A DNA stretch of 50,180 bases from a virus. Position 1 is the first letter of the stretch; every line of letters begins with the position of its first letter. Position numbers and translations under genes: made by a program. Below, piece by piece: positions 10,691 through 50,180 of the stretch. Below the pieces are notes generated by a model. It worked only from the letters and a program-made list of their open reading frames with translations, had not been told where the DNA came from and searched no databases. Where the stretch lies: positions 1 to 50,180 of IMG/VR virus record IMGVR_UViG_3300021963_000185; one strand, 5' to 3'.

Positions 10691-12375
10691 AATCCCCAGC
10701 TCTCAATCATTCGTATTGAGCCTCTTCCTGCACTATTAGTTCTGTTCCAATAGTCGCGAGCTCTCTTTACCTTCTCGTAGTCATTGTTCGAAACTATCCA
10801 GTAGGCAGGACACTTTTCTGTTCCGGCGCTTCTGGAAATAAGATTTATTGATTTTAGATATATTGCAAGTGCGGCGTTTTCTCCAAGAGCCTGAAGATTG
10901 AACCCAAGTTTGCTTCCAGCTCCCGTTGTTGTGAGGGCAAGAGACCTTCCGCATCCTTCGGTAGTTTCGCCGTCTTTGGGTGGCGGAGGGTTATATGGAG
11001 GCGGCTTGGGGAACTTAATTAAATCAACCAGCTCATGTGGGAATTCGGTAAGCGTTATATCGCATGATGCCCTGCTTATAGAGCCGTTTATGTTTCTATA
11101 AATAGAGGTCACATTGAATTCTGATATAACAAAAAGAGCTCCAGCGTTGCTGGATTGCTGAAATGGAAATTTCAACTGTGTAGACATAATTTCATCTAGG
11201 CCCATAAAAATAACCGGGTAAGGGGAAAGGGCTATTTTTCTAAGATTGTTTAACTGTTGGTCTACTGATGTTGTTATGACTTTTCCATCTATTGCATCAT
11301 CCAGGGTCCCAGAAGAATCTGAGGAAACAAGAAATGTAAAAGACGCCTGCATTAACTTATAACTTTGCCAATCCATTATGGGTCTATTGGCCACACGTTC
11401 AATTGTTGACCAGTTTGAGCCAATCGAACTATAAGCAATTTGATTAGGTTTATGAACAAACTCATGGCTAAGTGGTTCAGTTATCCCGTCCGTAACCTGA
11501 ATCATTTTTGGCACAGAAGGGGTCTGTGGTAGGGCTTGGGGCCTATTTACTTGCGCAGAGTCACCAAGAGAAACGGATATGTTCATGGGTGCGCCAGTGG
11601 AACGTGAATTAACAGCCCTCGGCGTTGATGTTGACATCGCCGCTCTCGTTTGGAGTGCCTCATCAGATTTTGCATCTACCAAAGCTATGGCTTGCTCTCT
11701 CGTCTTCCCGCCAGCTACTAATTCGTCGACTTGTGCGAGTTTTATTGACTCAGCGGCTGCGGCCATAAGAGAATCTGTTGACTGGCCAGACGTATCCCTA
11801 GTAAACAAAACATCTAGCATGAACTGCGTATCTCTGACACCGGCAGCAGAAAGTTTGGCAAATGCATAAAACTTGTTTTCAAACGGGTGATACCAGTACC
11901 CTGGATAAACCAAATCGCCGTTGTCGTCATAAACGCTTGTATAGGTCTGGGTGCTCTCAATCCATACCTGTATGTTTCTGTAGGAGTACGGGTTCAAATC
12001 AACAGCAAGAGGAAAAACTTTTAGCTGGGCCGTGGCGACGTAAAGCCTATTGCCAACGTACTTATGCGTATAAACGGGGAAAGGTTCTGTGTATTTTCTA
12101 CGAGACTGAGACGGCCTGACGGACGCCCTCTTGTCATATTTTATTCTTGACTGCTCGACAAGTTCATCGCCTGACGTATATTGGACGTAAGCCTGCATTA
12201 AGGGCATAGGCATCCAGTATTCGTCATCATCTGCCCTAACAGAAGAAACGCCATCGGCTTGAGTTTTGTGAAGATGATAGACGGGGTATCCGGGGTAAAG
12301 AACACCAGACCCATTTTGTATTTTTCTAACCTCTTTATAGAAGTATGTGTTTTGAATAGCTTGGTTTACAGGCAT
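10687..12375 (-). CDS. Tail protein between tape measure and hub (562 aa)
   Basis: The ATG overlaps the tape measure stop by one base (TAATG). Three parts are visible: an aromatic-rich N-terminal region (residues 1-190), an Ala/Ser-rich middle including a predicted helix (MAAAAESIKLAQVDELVAGG), and a C-terminal domain with SIYRNINGSISRASCDITLTEF and FPHELVDLIKF. The last strand pattern recalls gpU-type or tail-tube-initiator proteins. It ends its globular part in a proline stretch (PKPPPYNPPPPK). The position directly after the tape measure fits a tail-tip/tube initiator or distal tail protein, but no family is certain. Confidence 0.55.
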   Translation of the reverse strand: MPVNQAIQNTYFYKEVRKIQNGSGVLYPGYPVYHLHKTQADGVSSVRADDDEYWMPMPLMQAYVQYTSGDELVEQSRIKYDKRASVRPSQSRRKYTEPFPVYTHKYVGNRLYVATAQLKVFPLAVDLNPYSYRNIQVWIESTQTYTSVYDDNGDLVYPGYWYHPFENKFYAFAKLSAAGVRDTQFMLDVLFTRDTSGQSTDSLMAAAAESIKLAQVDELVAGGKTREQAIALVDAKSDEALQTRAAMSTSTPRAVNSRSTGAPMNISVSLGDSAQVNRPQALPQTPSVPKMIQVTDGITEPLSHEFVHKPNQIAYSSIGSNWSTIERVANRPIMDWQSYKLMQASFTFLVSSDSSGTLDDAIDGKVITTSVDQQLNNLRKIALSPYPVIFMGLDEIMSTQLKFPFQQSSNAGALFVISEFNVTSIYRNINGSISRASCDITLTEFPHELVDLIKFPKPPPYNPPPPKDGETTEGCGRSLALTTTGAGSKLGFNLQALGENAALAIYLKSINLISRSAGTEKCPAYWIVSNNDYEKVKRARDYWNRTNSAGRGSIRMIESWGL

Positions 12376-33904: not shown

Positions 33905-34429
33905 ATGTCAAAATCCTCGGCAAACCCTGCAATTCAGTACAAAGCTGCCACTCAGGGTGCTATAAATCTTGACGAAGCCAAGGGCATAGTCGAATGCTTC
34001 GTAGCCGGAATTGGTAACAAGGACTCGGTCGGCGACGTTTGTGCGCCAGGTGCGTTCTCGAAGAGCCTGATGCGCCGGAAGCCAAGAGTCGTGTGGGGAC
34101 ACAACTGGAACGACCCAATCGGCAAAGTTCTTGAAATATACGAGGTACCACCGAACGACCCTCGCCTTCCAGGAAAGATGCGCTCGGCCGGCATCGGTGG
34201 ACTTTATGCACGAGTTCAGTTCAACCTTATGTCAGAAAAGGGAAAAGAAGCGTTTGCGAGCGTTGCTTTTTTTGGTGAGGAACAAGAATGGTCTATTGGT
34301 TATAAAACAATTAATGCCAAGTTCGACCAGCAGATGCAGGCAAACGTCTTGTACGAAGTTGAACTTTATGAAGTGAGCCCTGTTCTCCATGGAGCAAACC
34401 AACTCACAGGAACAATTTCTGTTAAGTCA
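33905..34429 (+). other. Prohead protease domain (HK97 / S78-like) of the polyprotein
   Basis: Residues 1-175. GIVECFVAGIGNKDSVGDV, APGAFSKSL, H66 in VVWGHNWNDPIG, S130 in EEQEWSIGYK and E153/E156 in YEVELYEVSPVLHGANQ follow the order His, Ser, acid of phage maturation proteases. Full-length for this family is about 180-220 residues, so the domain is complete. It follows the portal, its usual neighbour. It would cut scaffold and capsid, and probably the rest of its own chain. Confidence 0.8.
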
Positions 34430-37400
34430 GACGAAAACTCTGCCGTCGCCGTTATGGAAAGAGCTGTTAGCTCAATAGCGGACATCGGAAATGCCAATTC
34501 TTCAGAACTGAAAGAAGTTCTAGATGCGCTGAAGAAAATAGCTTCGTCTGTATCGGAGGACGAGAAGTGCGGACCAGGCATGCCACACATGCAAAGACCA
34601 GCGACGCCTTCCGGAATGCCTTCTGCACCAGCAACAGGACCAGCTCCACGTTCGGTTGTAAAACCAACTAGACCGTCTATCCCGGAAAACCCAATGGTCG
34701 TAGCGCTTCGCAGGGAGCTTGTTGCACGAACAGGTTCTAACATTATCGTTAGGTCAGCGGGTGACAATGTTGTTGTGTTTGACCGCGTGATGAGTGATGG
34801 AACTGCGTCTACATACAGGCTCGCTTATCATTACGCAAGTGGCGAGTTCATGTTCGGCAAGCCGGAAAAAGTTAGTGCCCAGACCGTCTACACACCAGAG
34901 ACTCCTGGAGCATCTGGAGATGCATACTGGGGCGATGACTACTCCGAAATGCCTAAGTCTCTAGGATTCGATGAATTCTGGGGTTCAGGGTTCGGAAGTG
35001 AAATCAACTTCCAGGCAGATACAGGAAATGCTTTGATGGGGGTGATAGAGAGCCTTCAGCAAATAATTGATGAAAAGTCCGAATATGTAATACCGGTCGA
35101 ACCGACAGAGGCCTTTGAGTTCAAGCAGATGATTGACCCAGTGCTTGAGTACTACAAAGCAGATGCGAGAGTAACTGAGGAGGGGATTGTAGTTAAGTCG
35201 GCACACAATCCAGAGCTAATTGAAGCTCTTGATGTCGCGACTAAGTCCGTACTGGGAAAAATCCGAAGGGGCATTGGCGCTGGAAGGCGTCTTGATGCTC
35301 CAAATATTGGCGGAGGAAAGGGTCGCAGTAGAGCGGCTAGAGCAATCGGCGCTGCTACTGGTGGTGTAGCTGGAAATCTAGACCCGTCCAAGATTTCAAT
35401 GAATGACCCAGATGGTGACGGCTGGGCAAAAGAAGGCTCAAAAAATCCAGTGTGGGTTGGCTTTAAGAAAGCTACACAAAAACTTACTGGTGGTGGCAAA
35501 AAGAAGCCATCAAAAGATGAGCAAAGAGCTCGTTCTGCGGTAAACGCAGACAGACCTGGTCCGCCACGTCCAGGCACACAGAGAGCATGGGACGCCCCAT
35601 CGGTGCCTGCACCGCCACGTCCAAGCAGGGTCACGTTGACCGACGACGCCGGCGCAAGACTGCGCGAAGCAAGCCGTCAGCGGGCAAGAGAGCTCGGCTT
35701 TGATAGAAGCGTTGACCCAGCACCGCCACGCCCTCGAAAGAAACTCACTAACCAGGTAACAAGAGCTCCTCGTCCTGGTGATGGGGGTAGAAAACCGTCT
35801 GGTGAATCGATAGCCAACGCAATACGGCGTGAAACATCCGCATCAAGCCCTGTCCTGGGTCAGCAGCTAGCCAACGATATATCTAAGTACGGCTACCCAG
35901 AAGAAATGTCAACCGATGATTTGATTAGAACCGTCGCTGATTTCAGAAGAGAGCTGACTTCAGCAAGAAGAGATTTTGAAAAACTCCAATCGGACAGGTT
36001 CTCCGGAAAAGATGTTCCTTCAATGGAAATCAAGAAGGCAAGACAGCGTATTGATTCGCTTCGCCAAAGAGCATCCGTATACTCCTCGGAAATTTCAAAA
36101 CGTGACAAAGTAAAAGGCAACGACAGATTCTCTTCAGGGAAAGCGGTAACTCCAGAAGCAAAGCGCATGAGAAGACATGCCCCAATTGGAACTACCGGTG
36201 AATTTGACCTTCCGGAAGAAATAGCTGCAAGAGAAAAACACGAAGCATTTGTAGAGGAATTCAAAAAGCAAAACGGTTTTTGGCGCGATATCCCAAGAGC
36301 CGGAACAGTGAACTCCATGAACACTTCAGAAGAATGGCAGCGCGCTCGGGAAATTTCTCACAACGTAGCAATTCGGGAATGGGAAGAGACAGAGTTAAAC
36401 AGAAGACCAAAAGATTTTAGCGAAAAAGCAAGAGCATCCGTCGACTATCTGACATGGTACGGAAACTTCGCGAAGAGAATGGGTGGCTACCTCGATAGGG
36501 AAGAGGCAAGCGAAAACATTACTGACGACGAGCTAAGCGGCGCAAGGGCTGCAGTACTTGAAGTACTTGCTGAAAAGAGAGCCGTACCAGGTTCGAGAGA
36601 AGCTCTATCAAACCTAGAAAAAATGATGGATGATGCTGGATTCGGCCCTAATGGTCGCCACGAGACACCATGGGGCGGAAGAAAGAGAACATCTGTTACG
36701 GGATTCTCTTCTGGGAGAACAATAGATAGAAATGTCATGAAGTCTTTGAAAGACGACGGATTGGCGCTAGATGACGACGATGTCGTTGCTATTTTGCTTC
36801 CCAACTCAGGGCTTATTGTCCACAAAACTCTCACTGCTCGCAAAGATGACAGTTCCCTAAACTGGAAAAACATTCTTGGCGACAGCAAGGTAGAGCCAAA
36901 GGACCCGACTTCGCCAAGGGCAATGATTCGTCTAGATGCTGAGGGCTTCCAAAAACTAAGCGATGCCATGGACGCGGCAAACTCTGAGTTCGTACCTGGA
37001 CAGCTTTTGCCGCCACACATCGGAACGATAAAAGATAAAGATTTCCCATACTCTTATCCACCATCTACAAGATTCTCATCTGGCAGTAAATATGCACCAG
37101 AAATAGAGGACGAGCTGTGGCTCGACTCTGAACTGGGCGGCAACAGAGCGGCAGACAGAATTAATACCGAAAACGTCGATATGGAGATAGTTCCATCTTC
37201 CGACATAGGCCTTGATGGGCCAGATGCGGGAGCATGGACTGTTGTAGGTATGTACCGAGGGGAAGATTATGGCTCCGTCGACTATATCTACGAGACAGAT
37301 ACCTTTGATTCTGTAGAAGAAGCAAGACGATTCATAGAAACATATGACAGGTTGATAGAGGAAGAAATTAGACCTGGAGACCCAGAGTTCTTCCTTGACA

Positions 37401-40400
37401 TAAATAATTACAATAGAAGCAACAAAATATCCCTTGATGATGACCTTGACTCTGCCATAGACAAAGCAGTGCAAACTAGGAAGGATAGAGAGAATGCTCC
37501 GTATGACTACGGCAGCCTTATTTCTTCTCTTCTTTCTGATAGGGCACTAAATGTTTTTGGTGATGGGGAATCACGGTTCTCTTCTGGGCGCAACAAGGCA
37601 GAAAGACGCCAAGACGTCAAGAGGGTCATGGCTACCAACATGGCAGATAGGAAAGTAAACCTAGGGATACTTTCTCGTCGCATGAAGGGAGAAACCCTGG
37701 ACGAGGTTGGTAGGGCATACGGTCTAGATAGAGGAACCGTTCGCCAAATGGAGATGCGGGAAATGAAGCGCCTCAGAGATGGTGCAACTCCAAGCGAGAT
37801 ACTCGCCTACAGAATGGAAGGACTCACCCTCGACGATATGAGCAGAATGCTCGGAATGTCTCGTGAAGATGTAAGAAGAATTGAGTCTAGAGAAATAGCA
37901 CGCATGAGGCTCGACGGGCGCGATGGAAGCGACGCAATATTCGAGGGACGCAAAGCTGGATTGAGTCGCGAATCAATAGAGAGGATAACCGGCCTATCTG
38001 CAGACGACATAGAGACAAAAGAGAGAAAAGGATTCGAGAGAGCCGTAACTCGCGAAGATGTTTCTTATCAAATATTTGACAAGTATGTAACAAACTTTGG
38101 CGAAGATGAACTAACCGATGCAGAACTCGCAGAGGAGCTGGGAGTTAGTGAAAGAATTGTTTCCGAGGTGCGCGCAGGAGCAAATAAGAACATACTCGAC
38201 GCCCGTCGCGACATGGATGAATACTACAGAAGCCTTCCGGAACCAACTGATGAAGAGCTTCAAGCAGAGGCCAATTACTACGCAGATAACTTCGCTAGAG
38301 AGCAGGGTTTCAGTTCCTACGGCGAATATGAGGAGTACCTCTCCAGTGTGGGCAAAGAAGAAGGCGGAGCAAGGCTGTCTTCTGGATTAGTTCGTCAAAT
38401 GACTATCGAAAATCCACTACTAATAGGAACGCTTGCTGGTATTGCTAGCTCTAAGATTCAGAGAAGAAGAAGAGAAAGACTCGACGAGGATGAAGAATAT
38501 CTCGACGACGATGACAACGACGAGAGATTTTCTTCCGGTGCAGGCAAGAGCAGCCTTACGCCCAGCCAAAAGGTTGGCCAAAGGGTGTTTGATGAAGCAT
38601 CCAAGATAGCCAAAGAAGATAAGAAAGACATTTTCGACACAATGGATGCACTCATCTTTGATGAGCGCTTCGATTCCGTTAACCGTGGGGAAAAGCTCGA
38701 CACAAATGAGATGTATGCTCATATCAATGCCCTTCTTTACCCGGAGGGTGCTAAAGAAAGCAAGAAGCGCAGACTCTGGAGAAGAGAAAGACTCTCCTCT
38801 GGCGGCTCTTCTAGCGAGATACGTAAAAAGAAGCGCGCAAAAATAAAGCAGAAGGCATGGTCGGAAGAAGACCTCCAAAGATTCCGCGATAGAAACATAC
38901 TCAAAGCCAAGACACGCCCAGGAAAACGCAAGAACGGCCCATCTGCAGAAGAGTTTTCTTCTGGAAGAAAGAGGATAGACACCGCTGGAAGTTCAGCGCT
39001 GACTGGAGCATTCTATGATGCCGACAACGAAAGACTTGTTGTCGGGTTCAACAAGGGTGGCGTCTATGCGTATGACGGAGTAACCCCAGGAGACATAGAA
39101 GAGTTGCACAATGCCGAAAGCAAGGGTGCAGCTATGGCTTCAATCAAGAAGAAATACAAGGGCGTAAGGCTGTCTGAAGCAGACGACAGCCTAAAAGCAA
39201 CTAAGCAGGGCGACGAGTGGGTCGTTAACCCAGATAATGAAACAACATATTCAATATCCGAAGACGGCGGTGAATTCTTTGTTTTAAGAACAACTGGAAG
39301 TTACGCACGTGATGGTGGACAGTCTGGCGATGAGTACTACCACCCAGAGTCTTTCAAGAATATGGACTCTGCGATGAAGTGGGTAGAGCAGGACTTCTTG
39401 CCGTCAATTACTCCAGAGCCGTGGGACGAGGACGACTACGACGTAGACAGATTCTCGTCAGGTGGACCAGTTCGTGCCGCAAATCTTATGCAGTTTGACA
39501 CTCGTAGAAGCAGACGCGCTAGCAACATGACATATGACCCGCAGGATGGTCGTGTTGGTGTTACCTACAACGACGGTAGTGAACGGTTTTTCTCAGAGGT
39601 CCCATACGAAGCAGCAAGTTCTGCTGGTAACCCAGCAAAAGATATAGACGATTTTATCGATGACCTGGAAAAAGGAAAAGTTGGCAGAGAGGGCGGAAGA
39701 TTTAGCTCTGGTGCTGGCTCGGTGCCAAGAACTGATTGGGACTATTCATATCAGAAGTTCCCGCCAACAGAAGAGCAGGCAGTCATTGCAGATGCGGTAG
39801 CAACTGGTGAGAACGTGATTGTAAGAGCATTTGCCGGTACTGGTAAAACTTCTACTCTTGTAACGATTGCTGAAAGACTAAAGCGTCAAGACCCGAAGAA
39901 GAGAATCGTCTACATGGCGTTCAACAAGGACATTCAGCTTGAAGCTGAGGGCAGATTCCCTGGGAATACAGAGTCTCGAACTGGTGACTCAATCTCCTGG
40001 AACTGGGTCAAGCAGACGATGGGTAAAGCTTTCACTGACAGAATGGGCAGTAACGCACCTGAAAGAGTTAAATCCAAGGGGACGCGCAACAAAGATATAT
40101 CTGTTCATTTCAAGATTAAGCAGATGGAACATCCAGATGGTCTTAAAGACTCAACAACAGGAAGCCCTGTAGTTCTTGATGCGGTTGACGTAACAAAACT
40201 TGTAAGAGAGGCTGTTAAGCAGTTCCTTATCTCGGAAGATGATGAAATAGGCGCGCAGCACTTCAAGACAATCCAGAATGTTCCGCCCGTTCTGTTGGGT
40301 CACGCAAAAGCTATTTGGGATGACATGAACGACCCAGATGGCGTAATGAAGCTCGACAACTCAGTTTTCACAAAGATGTGGGCCCTATCGAGACCGCAGC

Positions 40401-43400
40401 TCAGCGAAGGTGTTGGACTATTTAAAGGAAAGCCGTCCGTAATATTCTTTGACGAAGCTCAGGACATCAACCCAGTAATGGCAAGAGTTATGCGCGAGCA
40501 GAACATCCAAGTCGTATTCGTTGGAGACAGCTACCAGGCTATTTACGGATTCCGTGGAGCATCGGACAGTCTAGAAAAAGCGGAAGCCGCATACGACCTT
40601 CCGCTCACTGGCTCATGGAGATTTGACAGCAAAATAGCTGGATATGCAAACAGATTCCTAGCATACATGGGTTCAAAAAACAGAATTCGTGGAGTCGGCA
40701 AGCCAGGCAATGGCGTTGTTGAACCAGAGTCGATGGTTGACCCAGATGCAATCTTGACAAGAAGCAACGGCGGAGCGCTCCGTGCAGTTGTGGAGCAAAT
40801 ACAGCTTGGCAGAACTGTAGGAACTTCTGAGAACTTCAAGAAGGACCTAACGAGATTTGCGTGGCACGCAGTAATGCTCAAGGCTGGTAAACAAGTAAAA
40901 AATCCACATGAGGAGCTAGAAGAATTCTCTTCATGGAAAGAGGTTCAGGATGCAGCCAGCGCCGAGGATGCAAGCCCGCGACTGAGAATGCTTGTGCAGC
41001 TATTCAATGACACGCCAAACATTATCGACATACTAGACCAGGTCGTTGTTGGGGGCAAGCTCAAGGGGGAGTCCGGTGGCGGCTCCGGCAAGAGAATTCT
41101 GCCGAGCGAAATAACAGATGGCTTTGAGATGTCTATAGACCCAGGCAGCATGGGTAAATGGGCAGGAGATAAGAAAACGCAGGTTTTGTATAAGAACGGA
41201 AAGCTGTTCTTGCAACTCCCATACACCAAATACCCTTCATCTGATTCGGATGCAAAGTTTGAGTGGCAAAAGCAAAATTTAAATCCGATAGGTAAAGTCC
41301 AAAAAGGTAAACCGGACGAAACAAATGGCAAATATGCAATCTGGGTTGACGCAACTCCAGAACAGGCAGCAGAGTTACTCTCTGGCATAACTTCAGGTGA
41401 TGCTCAAGAAGTTGACGTCATGGTAATGACGGCACACAGGTCAAAAGGTCTTGAATTTGGGAGAGTTCGGCTTTATGGAGATTTCCCAAGACCAAGACTC
41501 AACAAGAAGACCAACGAGATGGAGTACCCATCACCAGAGGAGCAGAGACTTCAGTATGTTGCGTCTACGAGAGCAATACGCGAACTAGACCCAGGCCCTA
41601 CAGACTGGATATACGGGGAAACATCAGAAGACGATGAAAGCCCAGATGTACCGGGTGGTTTCTCGTCTGGTGCAAGAGGCAACCCGATACCAAGCGCTAT
41701 TGGTAAGGATATGGTCCTAGAAGATGGCGGAACACTTGAAGACAATATGTTCAAGGGCACATACATCGCCGACTTTAATGGTGGAAAGATGGTCATCCAG
41801 CCAGCTGGAAGAGATTCGTGGGCTGTTTACCGTGCCGACTTCAGTGGTGGAGAAGATGGACCTTCTTACAGTTTCAGTTACGGACCGCCATCCGACGATG
41901 CAGAGTTTGGCTCACTGGCAGATGCGTACGAACATGTCCTGAACTACGTCAAGGAAAACGATATTTCTCTGGACTCTCTGGATGGCACTAGACGGTCAAA
42001 AGGTAGCGAGTCTTTCTCTGAGGCAAAAATTTCCAATTCAGATTCTGGAATTGCACAGAGATTTAGCTCTGGCCGCAAAGATGCGGATAAGAGACTTAAA
42101 GAAGCAAGAAAGTCTTCATCTAAGAAAGGCGACAAAGCAGAAGGCAAAGATTCGCGCCTAGATAGAGCAGTAGATGCTTACCTGAATTATGTGTTCGGCG
42201 CAAATCAATCATCTCGTCTTTCTTCGGGACGCAGTCAGGAAAACAATGGCGTAAGCAAGCGTGATGCTGAAGACGTTGAAATCTTGGCTAACTATTACAT
42301 GAATTCATATGGAGGATATGACGACGAGCTCGGGGACTGGCTAGACAGCAATCCAGGAAAGACAGAGAACGACTACATCTCCAGCCAGGAATTCTCGGAG
42401 AGAGTCGATGAGATGGAAAACGTTATGGCCGACGCTGGAGACAGTATGGCTGAAAACCGTCTTGATGAATATGCAAACCGCAGATTAGGTTCTGGGGCTA
42501 ACTCAGAAAGACCATCAGACGAAGATATCTACAATCTTAGAATGTCCGGCCCAACTCTTGAAGAGGTTGGCGAGCAGTACGGAATGACCCGCCAGGAAGT
42601 TCGAGCTGCCGAAATGCGCCACATAAGAAGAATGCGTGATGAAGGTTTTGAGTCAACTGGGACACCAACTTCGAGAAGAGAGCGTCGCTTGTCTTCTGGC
42701 GCTAACAGAGGAGGGATAAAAAGGTCGACAAACTCTGGAGTAGCGAGAAAAGATGGGAAGGTTGTCCTTGCGAGAAGAACCGAAGTCTCACAAGGTTGGA
42801 CTGGTGCCCCAGAAGAATATCTGAAGCCAGATGATGACTTTTTTGATGCAGAATCAGCATCAAGAATACTCAACAACCCCCTAGAGAGCTATAACGACCA
42901 AACCGGATGGCCGGTTCCGGCGAAAGAATTCTTCCAAAGTCTTGTTCTAGGCAGACCAGGCCAAGACGTAGATGTCATGGATGAAGACGGGAAATTCACC
43001 ACAGATGGACGTCTTAGAATCAAGAGTCTATTAACCGGCTCTGAGGCTGCAAAAGAGAAGTTTATAGACAGAATCGAATCTGGCGAAGTTTCTCATATGC
43101 AAGCAGTATCCGCAATGACTCTGCTTGAAAAAATCGGCATGAACGTCGGGGATGCTTCTGACCACATGTTCGAGACATTCGGATTCAAGTCGGCACCAGT
43201 TTGGGTTTCTGGCTTGGATGCAAGAGACCCGGACTACGACCTAATTAGGGGTGAAGTTAACTGGTCCCCGCTAACAGAAGAACAGTGGGTTGATGAAATC
43301 AAGCAGGCCTATGTAGACAACGCCAACATAAGTCAGTACGCAAAGAACAGAAGAGACTGGGTAACCAGAAATAAGGGCAAGTCAGAGAAAGATTATGAGG

Positions 43401-46400
43401 CGAGCCCTGAGTTTTTGCAAGACGCAAAACGGGCATATCTCTACAACAAGGGAGTTATGGGCCCTGCCGAAGTATATTCTCACCCATACTCACATTTCTA
43501 TGCAATGAGAGAAGACCAGAGAGATGCAGTAAAGAAGAACTGGCTTTCTCAGAACCCAGGAAAGACAGACGCTGACTACGACGAGGCGATGTCATGGGGT
43601 GGCGAAGGCGACCCAGACCTATCTCCTTTAGTTGGTGGATGGGGTTTTGGGGACCCACGAAAAGCCGCGTCAACAACTCTACAACCAGAAGCTGGCTCTC
43701 CGACTAAGAGGCCAGTATCACCTCAGCCATCGTCTTCGACTAAGTCTTCGCTATCTCCAGACACAACCAGAAGGCTATTCAAGGCGTTCAAGAGAGATGT
43801 AATACTTTCTGCTGCCGGAATAAATGAAGGAACAAACAGAGAAAAAGCAAAGAAACTCTCTGAGCTTGTCGGGTTTGACATCAATGAAGAGACATTCGAC
43901 AGATACAGAAAAGACGGCGTATCCCCACGTGTGGTAATAGAATTACTACGTAAAGGCCATATCAAAAACTTAAGTGGCATAGGTAATGCTGACCGGGCAA
44001 ACGACGACCTCAATGCGCTGGTTCGAGAGGCGAATAAATCCGTCTTTGTATCTACGGCTTTTGGAAGAATCAGAGAGGCGGCCAGGGCGGCAGGTCTTTC
44101 TGACGAATCTTTCGGAAGAAGCCTATGGAAAATGCTTAGCAAGGACCACGAAGTACACGTATTTGGCAAAGGTGACAGAGGTGTTCCAAGAAGCGGAATG
44201 GCAGATGGCGGAATACCAGCGACGTTCAACTTGAGCAAACTTGACCTACTAGGAGAGAGTGAACTAACAACTCTCGTTGATGGTCTAAACAAGATGGCCG
44301 AATCTGAAGGCTCTTCGGCAAGATTCTCCATAGATGAGATATTCCCAAGAGACGGTGACGCATTCGCTGACCCATTCGGTGAGTCGAAGATAAGAATGAG
44401 CAGCGGTGCTTCTCCGGTAAAGGGTCAACGCTTTGTAGCCAAGCCCAAGGAAAACAGATTGACTGCTGCAGCCAGGGAGACAGCAGAAATGCGCTTCTCC
44501 TCCGCAGCTAGACCTACGTACAGAACAGCCGGGGGTGGCATAGACAAAGATGCTATGTCTGCCGACATCGACGATGCAATACGCGGTCCAAGACTTGGTG
44601 CTGTCGCCATAACTACCGCCAACGCAGACAACGTTGGCAGAGAACAGATTGACAACCTTGCAAGAGCAATAACACTGCGTCAACACATAGCCGACATGTT
44701 CCCAAGCGTTGTTAACGATAGAACTGGTGTCTCCTACGATATAGAGCCACTACTTATCGAACAAGGGCTAGACCCCAAGGACGCGGAAAAGCTCACTGAC
44801 CTGGTTAATGACCTTGATGACTACATCGATGGCATCGTCGGGCAGTTCGAAGAAGAGGGAGACAAGCTCGAATCTGGACTGCGCCGCATGAACGACATGC
44901 TTGATGAAGTTGAAAGTCTTCGCAAGTACAGAAAAGAAACAATCGAGAAGTATGGCGAAGATGATGCAAGAAACCTGGTAGCAAGACTTGACGACAAAAT
45001 CAACAAGCTAACAACTTCAATAGACGAGGAATACCAGGCGACAATCGGCAGCAATAGAACAAATATGGCAAAACTCAGAGATGAGGCGCTTGCTCTTGTT
45101 GATGACAACCCCGGATTTGAAAAGCCCAAAGCTGGGTCAGACGGTCCTCGCCTATCTAGTGGTGCGAACTCACTTTCATCGAAGCTTATAGCCCTTGAAA
45201 TGTCGATGGGGCGCTCTGCTGAGGGCGGTCTTCCCAAGTACACCCCTGTTAGCAAGATTGACTTCAATGTTCCATCTGGAACAAGACTTTCTTCTGGTAA
45301 AGCGGACGAATGGTACGAAAACCTAACCGCAAAGTTGATTGAACAAATAGAAAAAGTTCAGGCATCAGGTGGAGACACGTGGCAGTTCCCTTGGCACAGA
45401 ACAACTTCCATGCCGAAGAACGGGATATCGAACCACGTATTCAGCGGCATGAACCCATTTGTTTTGATGCTTTCAGCAGATGAAAAGGGCTATACCAGCA
45501 ACAAATGGGCCACATATAACCAGTGGCAAAGCGTTGGTGGTCAGGTAAGAAAAGGCGAAAAAGGTACACAAATTCTGGCCCCAGTTTTCAAAAAGGTAAA
45601 AGACCCAGATACCGGCAAAGAGGAAACAAAACTAGTCAACTGGAGAACCTATTCGGTATTCAACCTTGAACAAATTGAAGGCATAAACCCAGACGACTAT
45701 AAAGACGACCCGAAAGAGCTTCTCGACGAAGCGGCGCGTGTAGAGAAGGTTGACAAGGCCTTCTCTGCGGTTGGGGCAGAAATAGAAACGGGTGATGGCT
45801 CAAGCGCACATTACAGCCCATCAAAAGACAAGGTAGTTATGCCTCCTTTTGCCTACTTCAAGACACCAGAGGGCTACTATGCGACTCTCGGTCATGAGTT
45901 GGTCCACTGGACCGGGCATACATCCAGACTAGATAGACCCAATATGAACCGCTTTGGGACGCCGGAGTACGCACGGGAGGAATTGGTTGCAGAATTAGGA
46001 GCAGCATTCCTAATGGCAAACTTCGGACTCTCTGCAGAGCCTAGAGAAGACCATGCCCACTATCTGGCCAACTGGCTCAAGGTTCTGCGCGAAGAGCCCA
46101 AAGCCCTCCAAGAGGCAGCTAGAGAAGCGCAAAAAGCTTCAAAACTGCTTATCGAAAAGATGAGGCAAGTGCTGGAAGATGCAGGCGTAGCGGAAGAGAC
46201 CATCGAAGATGTGGTCGAAGAAAAAACCGCAAAGGTAGGAATGTTTTCTGGGTCAGAGAGTAATTCTCTACTACAAGTAGCAGGGGCTCTCCCCGCCTAC
46301 CTCCGCATGGAAGTTGAGGCAGCAATTAAAAGCACCGCCTCAGAAGAGGTTCTATCAACTAAGGTTATTAACAGAATTTCAAAAACAATTGAACTTCTAG

Positions 46401-46429
46401 AGACATTCTCGAAGCAAAAAGGTATTTGA
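33905..46429 (+). CDS. Giant polyprotein: prohead protease, HTH modules, KTSC, SF1 helicase, ArdC (4174 aa)
   Basis: ATG with a strong AAAGGAG four bases upstream; no stop in 12.5 kb. In order: HK97-type prohead protease (1-175); low-complexity and unknown regions with a DPDGDG calcium-like motif (501-506); sigma-region-4-like helix-turn-helix repeats (1229-1489); KTSC domain (1688-1760); complete UvrD/Fbh1-type helicase (1937-2584); another sigma-like HTH (2865-2927); a 560-residue region with W-x3-NPGKT-type repeats (2933-3496); coiled coil (3535-3748); ArdC antirestriction protein with HELVH (3799-4174). Domain boundaries coincide with (R)(F/L/M)SSG motifs: residues 741, 933, 1056, 1224, 1490, 1541, 1629, 1683, 1849, 1932, 2585, 2719, 2771, 2928, 3497, 3749, 3794, plus degenerate 698, 2860, 3530. 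I infer cleavage at these sites by the N-terminal protease. It is far larger than typical phage head proteins. Confidence 0.85.
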   Translation: MSKSSANPAIQYKAATQGAINLDEAKGIVECFVAGIGNKDSVGDVCAPGAFSKSLMRRKPRVVWGHNWNDPIGKVLEIYEVPPNDPRLPGKMRSAGIGGLYARVQFNLMSEKGKEAFASVAFFGEEQEWSIGYKTINAKFDQQMQANVLYEVELYEVSPVLHGANQLTGTISVKSDENSAVAVMERAVSSIADIGNANSSELKEVLDALKKIASSVSEDEKCGPGMPHMQRPATPSGMPSAPATGPAPRSVVKPTRPSIPENPMVVALRRELVARTGSNIIVRSAGDNVVVFDRVMSDGTASTYRLAYHYASGEFMFGKPEKVSAQTVYTPETPGASGDAYWGDDYSEMPKSLGFDEFWGSGFGSEINFQADTGNALMGVIESLQQIIDEKSEYVIPVEPTEAFEFKQMIDPVLEYYKADARVTEEGIVVKSAHNPELIEALDVATKSVLGKIRRGIGAGRRLDAPNIGGGKGRSRAARAIGAATGGVAGNLDPSKISMNDPDGDGWAKEGSKNPVWVGFKKATQKLTGGGKKKPSKDEQRARSAVNADRPGPPRPGTQRAWDAPSVPAPPRPSRVTLTDDAGARLREASRQRARELGFDRSVDPAPPRPRKKLTNQVTRAPRPGDGGRKPSGESIANAIRRETSASSPVLGQQLANDISKYGYPEEMSTDDLIRTVADFRRELTSARRDFEKLQSDRFSGKDVPSMEIKKARQRIDSLRQRASVYSSEISKRDKVKGNDRFSSGKAVTPEAKRMRRHAPIGTTGEFDLPEEIAAREKHEAFVEEFKKQNGFWRDIPRAGTVNSMNTSEEWQRAREISHNVAIREWEETELNRRPKDFSEKARASVDYLTWYGNFAKRMGGYLDREEASENITDDELSGARAAVLEVLAEKRAVPGSREALSNLEKMMDDAGFGPNGRHETPWGGRKRTSVTGFSSGRTIDRNVMKSLKDDGLALDDDDVVAILLPNSGLIVHKTLTARKDDSSLNWKNILGDSKVEPKDPTSPRAMIRLDAEGFQKLSDAMDAANSEFVPGQLLPPHIGTIKDKDFPYSYPPSTRFSSGSKYAPEIEDELWLDSELGGNRAADRINTENVDMEIVPSSDIGLDGPDAGAWTVVGMYRGEDYGSVDYIYETDTFDSVEEARRFIETYDRLIEEEIRPGDPEFFLDINNYNRSNKISLDDDLDSAIDKAVQTRKDRENAPYDYGSLISSLLSDRALNVFGDGESRFSSGRNKAERRQDVKRVMATNMADRKVNLGILSRRMKGETLDEVGRAYGLDRGTVRQMEMREMKRLRDGATPSEILAYRMEGLTLDDMSRMLGMSREDVRRIESREIARMRLDGRDGSDAIFEGRKAGLSRESIERITGLSADDIETKERKGFERAVTREDVSYQIFDKYVTNFGEDELTDAELAEELGVSERIVSEVRAGANKNILDARRDMDEYYRSLPEPTDEELQAEANYYADNFAREQGFSSYGEYEEYLSSVGKEEGGARLSSGLVRQMTIENPLLIGTLAGIASSKIQRRRRERLDEDEEYLDDDDNDERFSSGAGKSSLTPSQKVGQRVFDEASKIAKEDKKDIFDTMDALIFDERFDSVNRGEKLDTNEMYAHINALLYPEGAKESKKRRLWRRERLSSGGSSSEIRKKKRAKIKQKAWSEEDLQRFRDRNILKAKTRPGKRKNGPSAEEFSSGRKRIDTAGSSALTGAFYDADNERLVVGFNKGGVYAYDGVTPGDIEELHNAESKGAAMASIKKKYKGVRLSEADDSLKATKQGDEWVVNPDNETTYSISEDGGEFFVLRTTGSYARDGGQSGDEYYHPESFKNMDSAMKWVEQDFLPSITPEPWDEDDYDVDRFSSGGPVRAANLMQFDTRRSRRASNMTYDPQDGRVGVTYNDGSERFFSEVPYEAASSAGNPAKDIDDFIDDLEKGKVGREGGRFSSGAGSVPRTDWDYSYQKFPPTEEQAVIADAVATGENVIVRAFAGTGKTSTLVTIAERLKRQDPKKRIVYMAFNKDIQLEAEGRFPGNTESRTGDSISWNWVKQTMGKAFTDRMGSNAPERVKSKGTRNKDISVHFKIKQMEHPDGLKDSTTGSPVVLDAVDVTKLVREAVKQFLISEDDEIGAQHFKTIQNVPPVLLGHAKAIWDDMNDPDGVMKLDNSVFTKMWALSRPQLSEGVGLFKGKPSVIFFDEAQDINPVMARVMREQNIQVVFVGDSYQAIYGFRGASDSLEKAEAAYDLPLTGSWRFDSKIAGYANRFLAYMGSKNRIRGVGKPGNGVVEPESMVDPDAILTRSNGGALRAVVEQIQLGRTVGTSENFKKDLTRFAWHAVMLKAGKQVKNPHEELEEFSSWKEVQDAASAEDASPRLRMLVQLFNDTPNIIDILDQVVVGGKLKGESGGGSGKRILPSEITDGFEMSIDPGSMGKWAGDKKTQVLYKNGKLFLQLPYTKYPSSDSDAKFEWQKQNLNPIGKVQKGKPDETNGKYAIWVDATPEQAAELLSGITSGDAQEVDVMVMTAHRSKGLEFGRVRLYGDFPRPRLNKKTNEMEYPSPEEQRLQYVASTRAIRELDPGPTDWIYGETSEDDESPDVPGGFSSGARGNPIPSAIGKDMVLEDGGTLEDNMFKGTYIADFNGGKMVIQPAGRDSWAVYRADFSGGEDGPSYSFSYGPPSDDAEFGSLADAYEHVLNYVKENDISLDSLDGTRRSKGSESFSEAKISNSDSGIAQRFSSGRKDADKRLKEARKSSSKKGDKAEGKDSRLDRAVDAYLNYVFGANQSSRLSSGRSQENNGVSKRDAEDVEILANYYMNSYGGYDDELGDWLDSNPGKTENDYISSQEFSERVDEMENVMADAGDSMAENRLDEYANRRLGSGANSERPSDEDIYNLRMSGPTLEEVGEQYGMTRQEVRAAEMRHIRRMRDEGFESTGTPTSRRERRLSSGANRGGIKRSTNSGVARKDGKVVLARRTEVSQGWTGAPEEYLKPDDDFFDAESASRILNNPLESYNDQTGWPVPAKEFFQSLVLGRPGQDVDVMDEDGKFTTDGRLRIKSLLTGSEAAKEKFIDRIESGEVSHMQAVSAMTLLEKIGMNVGDASDHMFETFGFKSAPVWVSGLDARDPDYDLIRGEVNWSPLTEEQWVDEIKQAYVDNANISQYAKNRRDWVTRNKGKSEKDYEASPEFLQDAKRAYLYNKGVMGPAEVYSHPYSHFYAMREDQRDAVKKNWLSQNPGKTDADYDEAMSWGGEGDPDLSPLVGGWGFGDPRKAASTTLQPEAGSPTKRPVSPQPSSSTKSSLSPDTTRRLFKAFKRDVILSAAGINEGTNREKAKKLSELVGFDINEETFDRYRKDGVSPRVVIELLRKGHIKNLSGIGNADRANDDLNALVREANKSVFVSTAFGRIREAARAAGLSDESFGRSLWKMLSKDHEVHVFGKGDRGVPRSGMADGGIPATFNLSKLDLLGESELTTLVDGLNKMAESEGSSARFSIDEIFPRDGDAFADPFGESKIRMSSGASPVKGQRFVAKPKENRLTAAARETAEMRFSSAARPTYRTAGGGIDKDAMSADIDDAIRGPRLGAVAITTANADNVGREQIDNLARAITLRQHIADMFPSVVNDRTGVSYDIEPLLIEQGLDPKDAEKLTDLVNDLDDYIDGIVGQFEEEGDKLESGLRRMNDMLDEVESLRKYRKETIEKYGEDDARNLVARLDDKINKLTTSIDEEYQATIGSNRTNMAKLRDEALALVDDNPGFEKPKAGSDGPRLSSGANSLSSKLIALEMSMGRSAEGGLPKYTPVSKIDFNVPSGTRLSSGKADEWYENLTAKLIEQIEKVQASGGDTWQFPWHRTTSMPKNGISNHVFSGMNPFVLMLSADEKGYTSNKWATYNQWQSVGGQVRKGEKGTQILAPVFKKVKDPDTGKEETKLVNWRTYSVFNLEQIEGINPDDYKDDPKELLDEAARVEKVDKAFSAVGAEIETGDGSSAHYSPSKDKVVMPPFAYFKTPEGYYATLGHELVHWTGHTSRLDRPNMNRFGTPEYAREELVAELGAAFLMANFGLSAEPREDHAHYLANWLKVLREEPKALQEAAREAQKASKLLIEKMRQVLEDAGVAEETIEDVVEEKTAKVGMFSGSESNSLLQVAGALPAYLRMEVEAAIKSTASEEVLSTKVINRISKTIELLETFSKQKGI
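37589..38371 (+). other. Helix-turn-helix repeat module, sigma-70 region-4-like
   Basis: Residues 1229-1489, bounded by motifs at 1224 and 1490. At least four successive HTH units are visible. At about 1262 is ETLDEVGRAYGLDRGTVRQM, then EMREMKRLR. At about 1306 is LTLDDMSRMLGMSREDVRRI, then ESREIARMR. Weaker units start near 1349 (ESIERITGLSADDIE) and 1403 (AELAEELGVSERIVSEV). The first two follow the sigma region 4.2 pattern TL-x-EVG-x3-G-x-(T/S)R-x2-(V/I)RQIE, closing in a basic helix. DNA or RNA polymerase binding is inferred. Confidence 0.65.
38966..39448 (+). other. KTSC-domain module
   Basis: Residues 1688-1848, bounded by motifs at 1683 and 1849. The first part (SSALTGAFYDADNERLVVGF, GGVYAYDGVTPGDIEEL, AESKGAAMASIKKKYKGVRL) fits the KTSC domain, a small beta domain first noted at the C-terminus of lysyl-tRNA synthetases and common in phages; its function is poorly known. 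The second part (DEWVVNPDNETTYSISEDGG, ESFKNMDSAMKWVEQ) is a separate small alpha/beta unit. The next module (1854-1931) has a looser KTSC-like pattern (MTYDPQDGRVGVTYNDGS). Confidence 0.6.
39713..41656 (+). other. SF1 (UvrD/Fbh1-type) helicase module
   Basis: Residues 1937-2584, bounded by motifs at 1932 and 2585. Helicase motifs in order are Q-motif PPTEEQAVI, Walker A AGTGKT (1977-1982), motif Ia YMAFNKDIQ, motif II DEAQD (2183-2187), motif III FVGDSYQAIYGFRG, motif IV GSWRFDSKIAGYANRFL, motif V TAHRSKGLEFGRVRLYGDF and motif VI LQYVASTRA. All motifs are present in about 650 residues, so this is a complete, probably active 3'-5' helicase. Delivery in the virion or action in replication are both possible. 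Confidence 0.85.
42497..42685 (+). other. Second sigma-region-4-like HTH module
   Basis: Residues 2865-2927, between RLGSG (2860) and RLSSG (2928). The 63-residue unit is almost only one HTH: PTLEEVGEQYGMTRQEVRAA followed by EMRHIRRMRDEG. It aligns closely with the first unit of the module at 1262. It would be released as a tiny DNA-binding peptide if both flanking sites are cut. Confidence 0.6.
42701..44392 (+). other. Large unassigned module with W-x3-N-P/K-G-K repeats
   Basis: Residues 2933-3496. The motif W-x3-N-(P/K)-G-K-(T/S)-x2-D-Y occurs at W3152 (WVTRNKGKSEKDY) and W3213 (WLSQNPGKTDADY). A third copy sits at W2812 in the earlier module 2776-2859 (WLDSNPGKTENDY). A helical region follows (LFKAFKRDVILSAAGINEGT, KKLSELVGFDI). 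I do not recognise a family; it may bind DNA or act as a capsid-internal structural protein. Confidence 0.4.
44507..45148 (+). other. Coiled-coil module
   Basis: Residues 3535-3748. Long heptad-like helices (EQIDNLARAITLRQHIADMF, LTDLVNDLDDYIDGIVGQFE, ESGLRRMNDMLDEVESLRKY, ARLDDKINKLTTSIDEEYQA) with abundant charge suggest an elongated coiled coil. Such segments often serve as internal scaffold cores in phage heads. It lies between a degenerate RFSSA site and RLSSG. Confidence 0.5.
45299..46429 (+). other. ArdC-type antirestriction module
   Basis: Residues 3799-4174. The N-terminal ArdC domain (ADEWYENLTAKLIEQIEKVQ, GDTWQFPWHRTTSMPKNGIS, LSADEKGYTSNKWATYNQWQ, GGQVRKGEKGTQILAPVF, WRTYSVFNLEQIEGI) binds single-stranded DNA in the plasmid protein. 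The following zincin domain has HELVHWTGH (H3997, H4001) and a likely third ligand E4030 in EELVAELGAAF. ArdC from plasmids protects incoming single-stranded DNA from restriction enzymes. Here the module is complete (about 300 of 376 residues). The position at the C-terminus of a head-associated polyprotein suggests virion delivery, as with P1 Dar proteins. Confidence 0.8.
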
Positions 46430-46516: not shown

Positions 46517-48034
46517 ATGGACAAAGAAATGCAGAACGCCCTAAGTATTGACGCCGACGGCAATATACTCAAATGCGCCAAGGGTGCCGACGCTTCTGCC
46601 TGCGGTTTCGAGGCTGGCTCAAAGATTTGTGGCAAATGTGGCGCTATTCCTACTCAGGTAAAAATTGTGCCCGTTGACGACGAGGAAATGGACGAAGAAG
46701 AAGAAATGACCGACGAAATGCCTGAAGAAGGCATGACGGACGAAGAGATGCCAGAAGAAGAAGAAATGCCGGAGGACGAAGAGGAAGAGGAAGAGGAAGA
46801 ATCCGATTCCGAAGACGAAGAGTCCATGGACGAAGAGAAGACGGCGTATTACAAAACTTACGGGTACGACAAGTACGTAAAGAAGTATGGCAAGAAGCCT
46901 TGGATGCCAGACATGGAAGATGATGAAGAGGACATGGAAGAATCCATGGACGAAAAAATGATGTCATCCAACAGCGGCAGCTCTCCGCGAAAGCAGAGAA
47001 GAATGGACCGCATGAAGGGCATGGACGAAGAGATGCCCGAAGACGAAGACATGGACGAAGAAATGCCAGAAGACGAAGAGCTCGATGACGAGGAAGAGAT
47101 GAAAGGCGCAATGGACCGCGCCTACAAGCGTCGCCTTGTTTCACTGGGCGTCAAGTCTGCTGACGTTGGTTCTTCCGGTTACCTGTGCGCCATCGACCGC
47201 AAGGCATATGCTGGCCATGTTCCTGTATGCGATAACTGTGAAGGCGGATGCGTTTCCGAAAAGGGAATGCCAGGCCTAATTCACGTAGAGGGAATGGCAG
47301 AAGAACTGATTGACGGTTCTGTTGTTGCATCTGGATATGCAGTGGCTAATGACACCTTTGTAGTTGACGTACAGAAAAAGTCAGGAAAGACATACGAAGT
47401 TTTCTACGAAGGCTCGACTGGTGAGCTTCTTGGCTTCCATAAGCTCGAAGACACTCTCAGCATCAAGTCTGCGCTTGATGACCTCAGAGTTATAACTCTG
47501 TTTGAGGCCGCCGACATTGCCGTCAAGGCAATAGATGGACACATCGTTGGAGTTGAGGCAGATTCTTTCGAAGGAATAGATGCTTTTGCTGTTGAGGTCG
47601 ACGGCTTTGACGGCAAGTCATACGATGTTTTTGTTTCACTGGACGGGGAAGTCCTCGGTTACGACAAGTACGAGATGGACGAAGCCGAAGAGATAGAAGC
47701 AGAAGCTGCAGAGATTGCCCTCAAGCGTGCGTTTAGTGACGACAAGAGAGAGGCTATGGCTAAAGAGGGAACCGCGATGGCGGATGGCTCCTACCCAATA
47801 GCAGGCGAAGAGGACCTAAAGAACGCAATTCAGGCATTTGGCAGAGCGAAGGACAAAGAAGCAACAAAACGTCACATCATGAAGCGGGCAAAGGAAATGG
47901 GCAAAGAAAACCTAATTCCAGCCAACTGGGTAATGGGCGGAGATTCAGAAAAGAAGTCTTCCGAAGTTGACGCAGAGCTGATGGCCTCACTAATTGAGTT
48001 CGAGCTTCTTCAGGCCGAAACAGAAATCAACTAA
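46517..48034 (+). CDS. Acidic Zn-ribbon / PepSY-like head-associated protein, DUF6582-like C-terminus (505 aa)
   Basis: ATG with AGGAG ten bases upstream. The N-terminus has a zinc-ribbon pattern C20, C29, C38, C41 (LKCAKGADASACG, KICGKCG). Residues about 55-205 are extremely acidic low complexity with Met/Pro (EEMPEDEEEEEEEE). A second cysteine set is C224, C238, C241, C245. Two PepSY-like beta units follow (TYEVFYEGSTGELLGFHKLE; SYDVFVSLDGEVLGYDKYEM). The C-terminal 70 residues (DGSYPIAGEEDLKNAIQAFG, TKRHIMKRAKEMGKENLIP) match the DUF6582-like motif frequent near phage capsid genes. A scaffold or capsid-assembly function is plausible because of its acidity and its place after the protease. 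Confidence 0.65.
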   Translation: MDKEMQNALSIDADGNILKCAKGADASACGFEAGSKICGKCGAIPTQVKIVPVDDEEMDEEEEMTDEMPEEGMTDEEMPEEEEMPEDEEEEEEEESDSEDEESMDEEKTAYYKTYGYDKYVKKYGKKPWMPDMEDDEEDMEESMDEKMMSSNSGSSPRKQRRMDRMKGMDEEMPEDEDMDEEMPEDEELDDEEEMKGAMDRAYKRRLVSLGVKSADVGSSGYLCAIDRKAYAGHVPVCDNCEGGCVSEKGMPGLIHVEGMAEELIDGSVVASGYAVANDTFVVDVQKKSGKTYEVFYEGSTGELLGFHKLEDTLSIKSALDDLRVITLFEAADIAVKAIDGHIVGVEADSFEGIDAFAVEVDGFDGKSYDVFVSLDGEVLGYDKYEMDEAEEIEAEAAEIALKRAFSDDKREAMAKEGTAMADGSYPIAGEEDLKNAIQAFGRAKDKEATKRHIMKRAKEMGKENLIPANWVMGGDSEKKSSEVDAELMASLIEFELLQAETEIN

Positions 48035-48050
48035 AGAAAGCGGACCCCAA

Positions 48051-50180
48051 ATGGCGGGTACGTTTACACACAAGACAAGGACGCTGGTATCGCCACGACT
48101 TGTTTCCCCACTTGCCGGAAGAAAAGACTTTATAGAAGCTGCCGAGGTATTCAGGCTATCTATTGGCGTGACTTCCAAATCAAACGTCCTAGACCCACAC
48201 ATGGCGGTAAAGGCCGCAATGGCTGGAGGAATGACCAGCCCTGGACAGGCAGACGATAAAAAACGCGCCAATAAGGGCGGCCCACCTGGCATGAAACATG
48301 AAGGCGATGGATATCGCTACATGCCTAATGAAGTTGCCGGACCGGGGAAATCTTTATATCTTTTCCCGTCTTATGAAACCAGAAACTCGTCGAAAATGGA
48401 ACCCAACTTTGGTTTCCTAGACACAGCTAAGCCCGTCTCTGTTGATGAGATGAAAAAGAAGCTTGCTGAATCTCCACGAATAAGAATGGAGAAGTACAAG
48501 ATAAACCCCAGAAACGGGGAAAAAATAGATGGCTCAGAAAAGCCAATGGACCCTCTTTACTTCAACAGGGAGCTTCCTGCAGAAAGAAACCCAGACCTGG
48601 ACGGTGTTGAGGAGAAAAGTCTCGGCGAATCACTAGGTAGAGCAGCTCGCGGAAGCAGTCTCGTCGGCAGAGTAGCTCAAGGGATAGGAATAGTTTTTGA
48701 CGAGCTAGGCAAAATGCGTTGCCCTCCTGGAACTCCGGCTGCAAATCAATTTACTGACGCAAATGGCTCAAATTGTTTTGGCGTAAGCCTGCCCAAACTC
48801 GTTGGGAAACTGGTAGAGCTAGCTAGGGAAGCAGCACCAGAAGGTGACGAAAGAAGAAGCGTCAAAGGAATACAAAAAAAGATTGCCAATCTAATTTTTG
48901 ACTTTGACAACAGCCGCTTTGGCAGAGTCTCGTGGTACGACGAAAACGGAAAGCGAATGGGCTTCGGCGAGTACAGAAAGTACCGCGAAAAAGGTGGTGT
49001 TGCGGAAGGCGAAAGATGGTTCGTCAATGCAATGGTCAGGGCCGAAGAGGAGTTCCGTCGCCAGGGCGAGCGCGTAAAAGAACTACAGGACAGACTGGGA
49101 ATAGATTCGTCAGACGATAAACGAGCAACAAACGCTGACCTAGTAGAGACGATAGAAAAGCTTAGAGAAAACGGCGTAATCAATACTGTAATAAGAAACA
49201 GGGATACGCCAGAGATAGTCGAAGCGCGAATAAAAGCAAGATTAGAAGCAGACCCAAGCTATAGGGCGTTGTCTAAAGAAGAAAAAGAAATCCTCATCAA
49301 GGGAGATATTGCTAGGTATTACGAAACAGAAAGAGCATCACTAGAAGCTTTTATAGATGAAGTAATCAAAAACCCAGAACATATCAAAGACGCAATAGAC
49401 ACTATAAGTTTTGTAAACGGAAGAGACCTGGATGATGGTGCTTTTTCGATTAATGGCGTAGTGGGCGGGGAAAGAATAAGCGGGAATATAGACCTAGACA
49501 TAACCCACATGATGGGCAGGCAAGAAAGCGAAATGCCCAATCTAAAAACAAATGAGAGACTAAAAATATACGCTGAAGGCGGTAAAACAGAAGCAGAAAG
49601 AGTCGCCCATCTCCACGACTTCTTAGTCAACTCAAATGCTTTTGCTACAAACATGGCCTGCATGGTTGAGGGTCCGTCTGGCATCGGTCGTCATACGATG
49701 AAACATGAAATAGCGCACTCCATACAGGCCAAAGCTCTTCATGAATACGTGAAAAACATGCTCGCAACAGGCGGGAGTATAAAGATTGGCAAAAGGGAAA
49801 TAACAGACCCATCGAAGCTGACAGCAGACGACATATACCTAATCATGCAGGGCAAAACAAGTGTCCCTCTAGATGCCATAAAGGGGCTTCAGACTAGAGG
49901 AGAGGCTGTTGCATTTCTGGCCGGACGTTACATCTGGGACATGAACCCAGAAGGCTCGCCAAACCGCTCCATGGAAATAGGAGCAGAACTTTGGGCGTTG
50001 AGAAGTCTTGGTCTTATATTTGGAGACGACATAGATGCCGCTCTCGAATACATGGATGACGTTTCGTTTGGAAAAACATTTACCGATAGAGCTGCGTCAG
50101 ATGCTGACGCAATTAGAGCTGTGGCAGACACTTACTACGATGCCGGGAGCAGAATTGCCAAGGAGCGAGCTGAAAGAGTA
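48051..50180 (+). CDS. Large protein with HEIAH metallopeptidase motif, 3'-truncated by window
   Basis: Starts at ATG 48051, 16 bases after the preceding stop, and stays open for 710 codons to the right edge. Residues 224-243 hold CPPGTPAANQFTD ... SNCFG (C224, C242). This looks like a small motif I have seen in phage proteins, but cannot name. HEIAH (552-556, in MKHEIAHSIQ) is a zincin zinc-binding motif; the surrounding sequence (RHTMKHEIAHSIQAKALHEY) is helical, as expected. Most of the rest is charged helix (EAAPEGDERRSVKGIQKKIA, EEFRRQGERVKELQDRLGID). No (R)(F/L)SSG motif is seen in the visible part. It could be an additional virion-packed protease or maturation factor. Confidence 0.65.
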   Translation, partial: MAGTFTHKTRTLVSPRLVSPLAGRKDFIEAAEVFRLSIGVTSKSNVLDPHMAVKAAMAGGMTSPGQADDKKRANKGGPPGMKHEGDGYRYMPNEVAGPGKSLYLFPSYETRNSSKMEPNFGFLDTAKPVSVDEMKKKLAESPRIRMEKYKINPRNGEKIDGSEKPMDPLYFNRELPAERNPDLDGVEEKSLGESLGRAARGSSLVGRVAQGIGIVFDELGKMRCPPGTPAANQFTDANGSNCFGVSLPKLVGKLVELAREAAPEGDERRSVKGIQKKIANLIFDFDNSRFGRVSWYDENGKRMGFGEYRKYREKGGVAEGERWFVNAMVRAEEEFRRQGERVKELQDRLGIDSSDDKRATNADLVETIEKLRENGVINTVIRNRDTPEIVEARIKARLEADPSYRALSKEEKEILIKGDIARYYETERASLEAFIDEVIKNPEHIKDAIDTISFVNGRDLDDGAFSINGVVGGERISGNIDLDITHMMGRQESEMPNLKTNERLKIYAEGGKTEAERVAHLHDFLVNSNAFATNMACMVEGPSGIGRHTMKHEIAHSIQAKALHEYVKNMLATGGSIKIGKREITDPSKLTADDIYLIMQGKTSVPLDAIKGLQTRGEAVAFLAGRYIWDMNPEGSPNRSMEIGAELWALRSLGLIFGDDIDAALEYMDDVSFGKTFTDRAASDADAIRAVADTYYDAGSRIAKERAERV

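Follow-up and report, generated by a model that had tools for sequence, protein, structure and literature searches.

A phage prohead-protease polyprotein with a terminal ArdC module and a repeated candidate cleavage motif

Introduction

The DNA analysed here, IMG/VR virus record IMGVR_UViG_3300021963_000185, is 50,180 bases long and is hereafter called the window. It contains a giant open reading frame (ORF) that starts with an S78 prohead protease and ends in an ArdC antirestriction protein, the latter standing directly behind a short motif that is repeated along the chain. Here we describe this ORF and its ArdC module and discuss how the module may be excised and delivered. Residue numbers are those of the ORF at 33905-46429. 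The features on which the argument rests are the following:

33905..46429 (+), giant polyprotein ORF, 4174 aa and 462 kDa, with 17 [LFM]SSG linkers and one RLGSG, giving ~18 segments
33905..34561 (+), S78 prohead protease domain, residues 1-219; Pfam PF04586 at 3.7e-9, phrog_3244 (head maturation protease) at 3e-14
45284..45298 (+), RLSSG linker, residues 3794-3798, immediately preceding ArdC; putative site of excision
45299..46426 (+), with the stop to 46429, ArdC module, residues 3799-4174; Pfam, PHROG and PDB matches

A first-pass annotation, made from the DNA letters alone, had described ArdC as the terminal module of a fusion to the prohead protease, preceded by a motif. This description holds: ArdC makes up the last 376 of the 4174 residues, the S78 domain begins the same ORF and RLSSG is found at residues 3794-3798. 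The protease is assigned to S78 by its Pfam match, by an invariant His and Ser (H66 and S130 in 14 aligned proteases, those of cultured Gordonia and Brevibacterium phages among them) and by its head-gene context beside the portal gene. By its domain content, with several disparate domains combined in one ORF (S78 protease, sigma-like helix-turn-helix, KTSC, UvrD helicase and ArdC) and the hub domains ArdC-N and MPTase among them, the product qualifies as a polyvalent protein.

The ArdC module

Judged from its sequence, window 45299-46426 encodes a complete and genuine ArdC with an intact active site. The module consists of an ArdC-N single-stranded DNA (ssDNA) binding domain, a zincin metallopeptidase (MPTase) and a C-terminal tail of ~85 residues. 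Its identity, as proposed by the first-pass annotation, is confirmed by matches of the last 376 residues to Pfam (ArdcN at 6.7e-28, MPTase-PolyVal at 7.4e-45) and to PHROG 7245 'anti-restriction protein' (4.7e-85), as well as by matches at ~1e-56 to both crystal structures of R388 ArdC, 6sna and 6i89, over residues 5-288 and nearly the full extent of these structures. ArdC-N is followed by the MPTase, collinear with R388 ArdC. The same two structures were the top two structure matches, at 1e-14 to 1e-16, of the predicted model of the ArdC region; this AlphaFold model, which covers residues 3497-4174, is weak (predicted local distance difference test 56, nine sequences) and served only for fold matching and for judging the linker.

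The metal ligands of R388 ArdC are H201, H205 and E229 (PMC7213743). R388 residues H201, E202, H205 and E229 find their counterparts in H3997, E3998 and H4001, which form the HELVH motif, and in E4026 of AREELVAEL, with which ligand E229 aligns. All four are invariant among the aligned relatives. E4030, which had earlier been taken for the metal-site glutamate, is invariant too, yet it is not the aligned ligand, and the R388 alignment points to E4026 instead.

Compared with its 82%-identical relative in G001, the module shows 0.12 nonsynonymous (dN) against 2.0 synonymous (dS) substitutions per site, a dN/dS of ~0.06, from which we conclude that it is under purifying selection and kept functional. 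The computed mass of the C-terminal ArdC fragment is 42.1-42.4 kDa; the fragment as such agrees with the first-pass annotation, its mass of ~41 kDa required correction.

The repeated linker motif

Three further modules of the polyprotein have been recognised:

37667..38032 (+), sigma-70 region 4-like helix-turn-helix module, residues 1255-1376; Pfam/PHROG
38987..39184 (+), KTSC-domain module, residues 1695-1760, beginning 7 residues past an FSSG site
39752..41587 (+), UvrD-like helicase module, residues 1950-2561, phrog_1967 at 9e-78, beginning 13 residues past an RFSSG site

R[LFM][SG]SG occurs 15 times in the polyprotein versus 0.046 expected by residue shuffling, the shuffle having counted R[LFM]S[SG]G, which has an equal chance frequency and is not letter-identical. 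Within the recognised domains no site is found, versus 5.2 expected (P 0.002). The matches to KTSC, helicase and ArdC each begin at most 15 residues past a site. The window and G001 agree at 94% of motif positions, compared with 71% in the 20-residue flanks, and the motif preceding ArdC is identical. A 51-residue indel between the two takes away exactly one site-to-site segment; the remaining indels of at least 15 residues all lie in the region of sites 2719-2928. The 'cut-site motif' of the first-pass annotation is thus firmly a repeated linker, and a putative cut site.

Related phages and their motifs

A scan with the protease region yielded 307 related stretches; the analysis went on with the 80 best of them. 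Complete polyproteins among these range from ~1000 to over 4000 aa, with 4736 in G001. The reiterated motif differs by lineage: R[FLM]SSG in that of the window and GMRSR, GLAS, GFASR, GF[AS]S or LRSSG in others. Each lineage's motif is common to that genome's own giant ORFs, and in records read whole or nearly so it clusters in the tape measure and in a small number of giant ORFs near the head genes, the remaining ORFs of the relatives' genomes showing the generic motif at only 0-0.3 per 1000 aa. The shortest polyproteins (~1085 aa, e.g. G010) have no clear motif array. L021, which is identical to the window over the query, has a premature stop codon in the protease reading frame that probably reflects an error of assembly.

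The tape measure of the window is encoded away from the polyprotein:

12375..17624 (-), on the opposite strand to the polyprotein, tape-measure protein, phrog_167 at 5.3e-15, with RFSSG at residues 38 and 775

The motif class of the tape measure equals that of the genome's polyprotein in all eight testable genomes, with one tie (G007), the classes having been picked by the analyst from the polyproteins and the genomes being related. A generic linker is not expected to track its genome's motif in this way, and the agreement suggests that a tail protein may be processed by the same enzyme as the polyprotein. In the relatives' tape measures the genome's own linker motif mostly lies within a Gly-rich stretch.

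The position of ArdC also varies by lineage. R[FLM]SSG-lineage polyproteins have it at their end, where GTRLSSGKA precedes it in all relatives seen. Phages of the GFASR lineage carry it internally, between PRGFASRGES and VEGFASRGDW, which are ~320 residues apart, a bracketed segment close to R388 ArdC in length. The GMRSR lineage has it at the end of another polyprotein, located just before the capsid gene, ~15 residues past VNGMASRS. Terminal position is therefore no rule of the family. In all three lineages (RxSSG, GFASR and GMRSR) ArdC starts 0-15 aa past the lineage's own site. Of the 48 protease ORFs seen as far as their 3' end, 9 contained ArdC, and many members of the wider family are without it. 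The GMRSR-lineage polyprotein of G006 that ends in ArdC (L166:2307-9149) also has a zeta-toxin-like kinase domain and pentapeptide repeats.

Two other large ORFs of relatives, G003:C1:12235-17250 and G007:C1:100626-107258, consist of collagen-like GATG/GPTG repeats and probably encode tail-fibre proteins. Host assignment by means of GTDB genomes gave only three unlike contigs of metagenome-assembled genomes (Phycisphaerae, Gammaproteobacteria), and since these are probably binned phage DNA, no host is claimed.

Gene neighbourhood

The polyprotein lies in a head operon with the following neighbours:

31697..33805 (+), portal protein gene, directly upstream of the polyprotein; Pfam PF04860 at 4e-47, PHROG 2662
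46517..48034 (+), acidic 505-aa gene, probable scaffold, with a C-terminal domain that on visual comparison resembles the C-terminus of the DalanDe capsid maturation protease
47994..50180 (+), N-terminal part of a second giant protein, truncated at the edge of the window; zincin-like HEIAH at residue 571

The 505-aa acidic gene has no match in Pfam or PHROG. In relatives the second giant protein measures 2213-3490 aa and has 3-7 RxSSG sites; it bears cargo such as an RNase_T exonuclease.

Discussion

Excision of ArdC at the preceding motif is strongly supported by the lineage-specific motifs, the matching motif of the tape measure and the location of ArdC right after a site in three motif lineages. 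Delivery in the virion, which the first-pass annotation had already suggested, is plausible, and the motif comparisons make it likelier than that annotation could show. We consider it reasonably probable that ArdC belongs to the cargo of a capsid polyprotein that processes itself, and that it is cut free in the head and ejected with the DNA to act in antirestriction.

The process might run as follows. The N-terminal prohead protease would be built into the prohead interior, pulling along the covalently attached string of modules. During head maturation it would cut the R[FLM]SSG linkers and so free each module inside the head, ArdC as a fragment of ~42 kDa that starts at or just past RLSSG/K. 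After DNA ejection the free ArdC would enter the cell together with the genome, bind phage DNA where this is transiently single-stranded, perhaps alongside the helicase module packed with ArdC, and guard the genome against restriction ahead of the start of transcription. Cleavage by S78 at the motif, the identity of the cutter, packaging, ejection and the antirestriction activity of this ArdC are steps we infer.

Various points weigh against this proposal. The major capsid protein, the classic prohead-protease substrate, was searched for the motif as a decisive test, which failed: the polyprotein motif was found in no relative's capsid protein, the window itself having no capsid gene. The tape measure is a tail protein, and cutting of tail proteins by head proteases is not generally known. 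Because the motif classes were analyst-chosen and the genomes are related, the tape-measure match represents fewer than eight independent events. The antirestriction function of R388 ArdC needed expression in the recipient, donor complementation having failed, the protein favours ssDNA, and its metallopeptidase activity is dispensable for antirestriction (PMC7213743). A recipient-made, peptidase-independent and ssDNA-preferring R388 ArdC means that a protective role on injected double-stranded DNA is not a given. Finally, the HExxH zincin of the second polyprotein, found in most lineages examined, is a rival candidate for the processing enzyme.

This last point leads to the best surviving alternative, which we nevertheless regard as unlikely, namely that the same linkers are cut not by S78 but by a zincin metallopeptidase, either the one in ArdC itself or the second giant protein's HExxH domain. 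Zincins are the usual candidates for processing in polyvalent proteins, as Iyer et al. propose (PMC5512222), and an HExxH domain is found at a similar place in the second giant protein (residues ~517-698, near 570) in all lineages where this ORF was seen. Against this, the S78 protease heads every polyprotein sampled, and MPTase-PolyVal was not found in 6 of 13 records, all possibly fragments (G004, G005, G008, G010, G011 and G012), at least three of which (G004, G008 and G012) display clear linker arrays. The peptidase of ArdC itself can thus not be the general cutter. As proof of cutting by S78 only, the absence of MPTase-PolyVal is weakened by the other HExxH domains in giant ORFs of other lineages.

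Somewhat less probable again is that ArdC is released but acts in the producing cell, late or against superinfecting phages, without being delivered by the virion. R388 ArdC is active if produced in the same cell as the DNA (PMC7213743), and a position in a late operon is no proof of packaging; however, fusion to the capsid protease would place ArdC in the prohead by default, and the other cargo, such as the sigma-like helix-turn-helix and the helicase, fits an early role. The idea that the R[FLM]SSG repeats are mere flexible interdomain linkers of a giant protein that stays intact, as scaffold or as ejected polyvalent protein, seems improbable, for although such linkers are typically Ser/Gly-rich and the site is in a low-confidence stretch of the predicted model, an exact five-residue motif, shared and specific to the lineage, is not expected of generic linkers, this motif is 94% conserved amid 71% flanks and recurs in the unlinked tape measure, and the unrelated giant Gilgamesh gp48 (4625 aa), taken as negative control, has no repeated motif.

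Extended from the window to its relatives, excision in the head followed by ejection leads to a broader proposal that we put forward tentatively, as one with a real though lesser chance of being right: a group of tailed phages, known from over 300 contig stretches, may use an RNA-virus-like polyprotein strategy, in which a capsid protease leads up to ~18 segments, cuts at a private motif that co-varies by lineage with that of the tape measure, and loads effectors at a fixed ratio, ArdC in some lineages, into every virion. If true, fusion to the capsid protease followed by release would be a simple way to pack many injected proteins at a fixed ratio. The repeated motif would then flag each delivered module in the sequence, which would allow an inventory, by cut site, of what hundreds of uncultured phages inject, and motifs that differ between lineages would provide a natural record of protease-substrate co-evolution.

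Comparison with known systems

Polyvalent proteins with ArdC-N and MPTase (PMC5512222) are already known, and so are injected proteins that are processed by a prohead protease. In literature without preprints and most subscription journals, we found no description of both themes joined in one chain led by a prohead protease with iterated lineage-specific linkers; on phage prohead-protease polyproteins, the polyvalent-protein paper was the only one found.

The ArdC of R388/pSa (6sna, 6i89; PMC7213743) shares with the window module both domains, a full-length collinear match and the HExxH and EExxAE active site. It is a free plasmid gene, whereas the window ArdC forms one module in a polyprotein led by a phage capsid protease and has the extra tail of ~85 residues.

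The P1 virion packs ~40 copies of DarB, a 250-kDa antirestriction protein (PMC9024508). The Dar system of P1 (DarA, DarB and DdrB) can be likened to the window in that antirestriction proteins packed in the virion are tied to head morphogenesis. Its proteins have separate genes and no protease fusion, and DarB is directed by an N-terminal signal in its first 30 residues. Since the polyprotein has no Dar match in Pfam or PHROG, where homologues of DarA, DarB and Hdf were sought, the likeness is a functional analogy only.

In T4 and SPN3US, head proteins that are injected are first shortened by the prohead protease, which cuts them at a short motif (PMC7411985). The T4 internal proteins and Alt and the SPN3US ejection proteins therefore resemble the proposed cargo, as injected head proteins cut at a short consensus (AXE in SPN3US). 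Each has its own gene and its own removable propeptide, unlike the window, where many cargos form one chain with the protease.

The polyvalent proteins of Iyer et al. (2017, PMC5512222) are likewise giant multi-domain phage proteins with ArdC-N and MPTase-PolyVal that are predicted to be packed and injected, host transfer alongside the DNA being a prediction for most of them. The window chain differs in that it is led by an S78 prohead protease and that its modules are split by iterated lineage-specific linkers.

The Gordonia and Brevibacterium phages Gray, GMA6, DalanDe and Cantare share with the window a homologous protease (32-36% identical), the portal and the capsid protein. Unlike the window chain, their capsid maturation proteases are mostly ~420-490 aa without cargo. 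The DalanDe protease (L104:11632-16533) is a 1634-aa fusion in which the protease lies in the C-terminal portion and no motif recurs. As a cultured relative, Gordonia phage DalanDe is a possible laboratory model.
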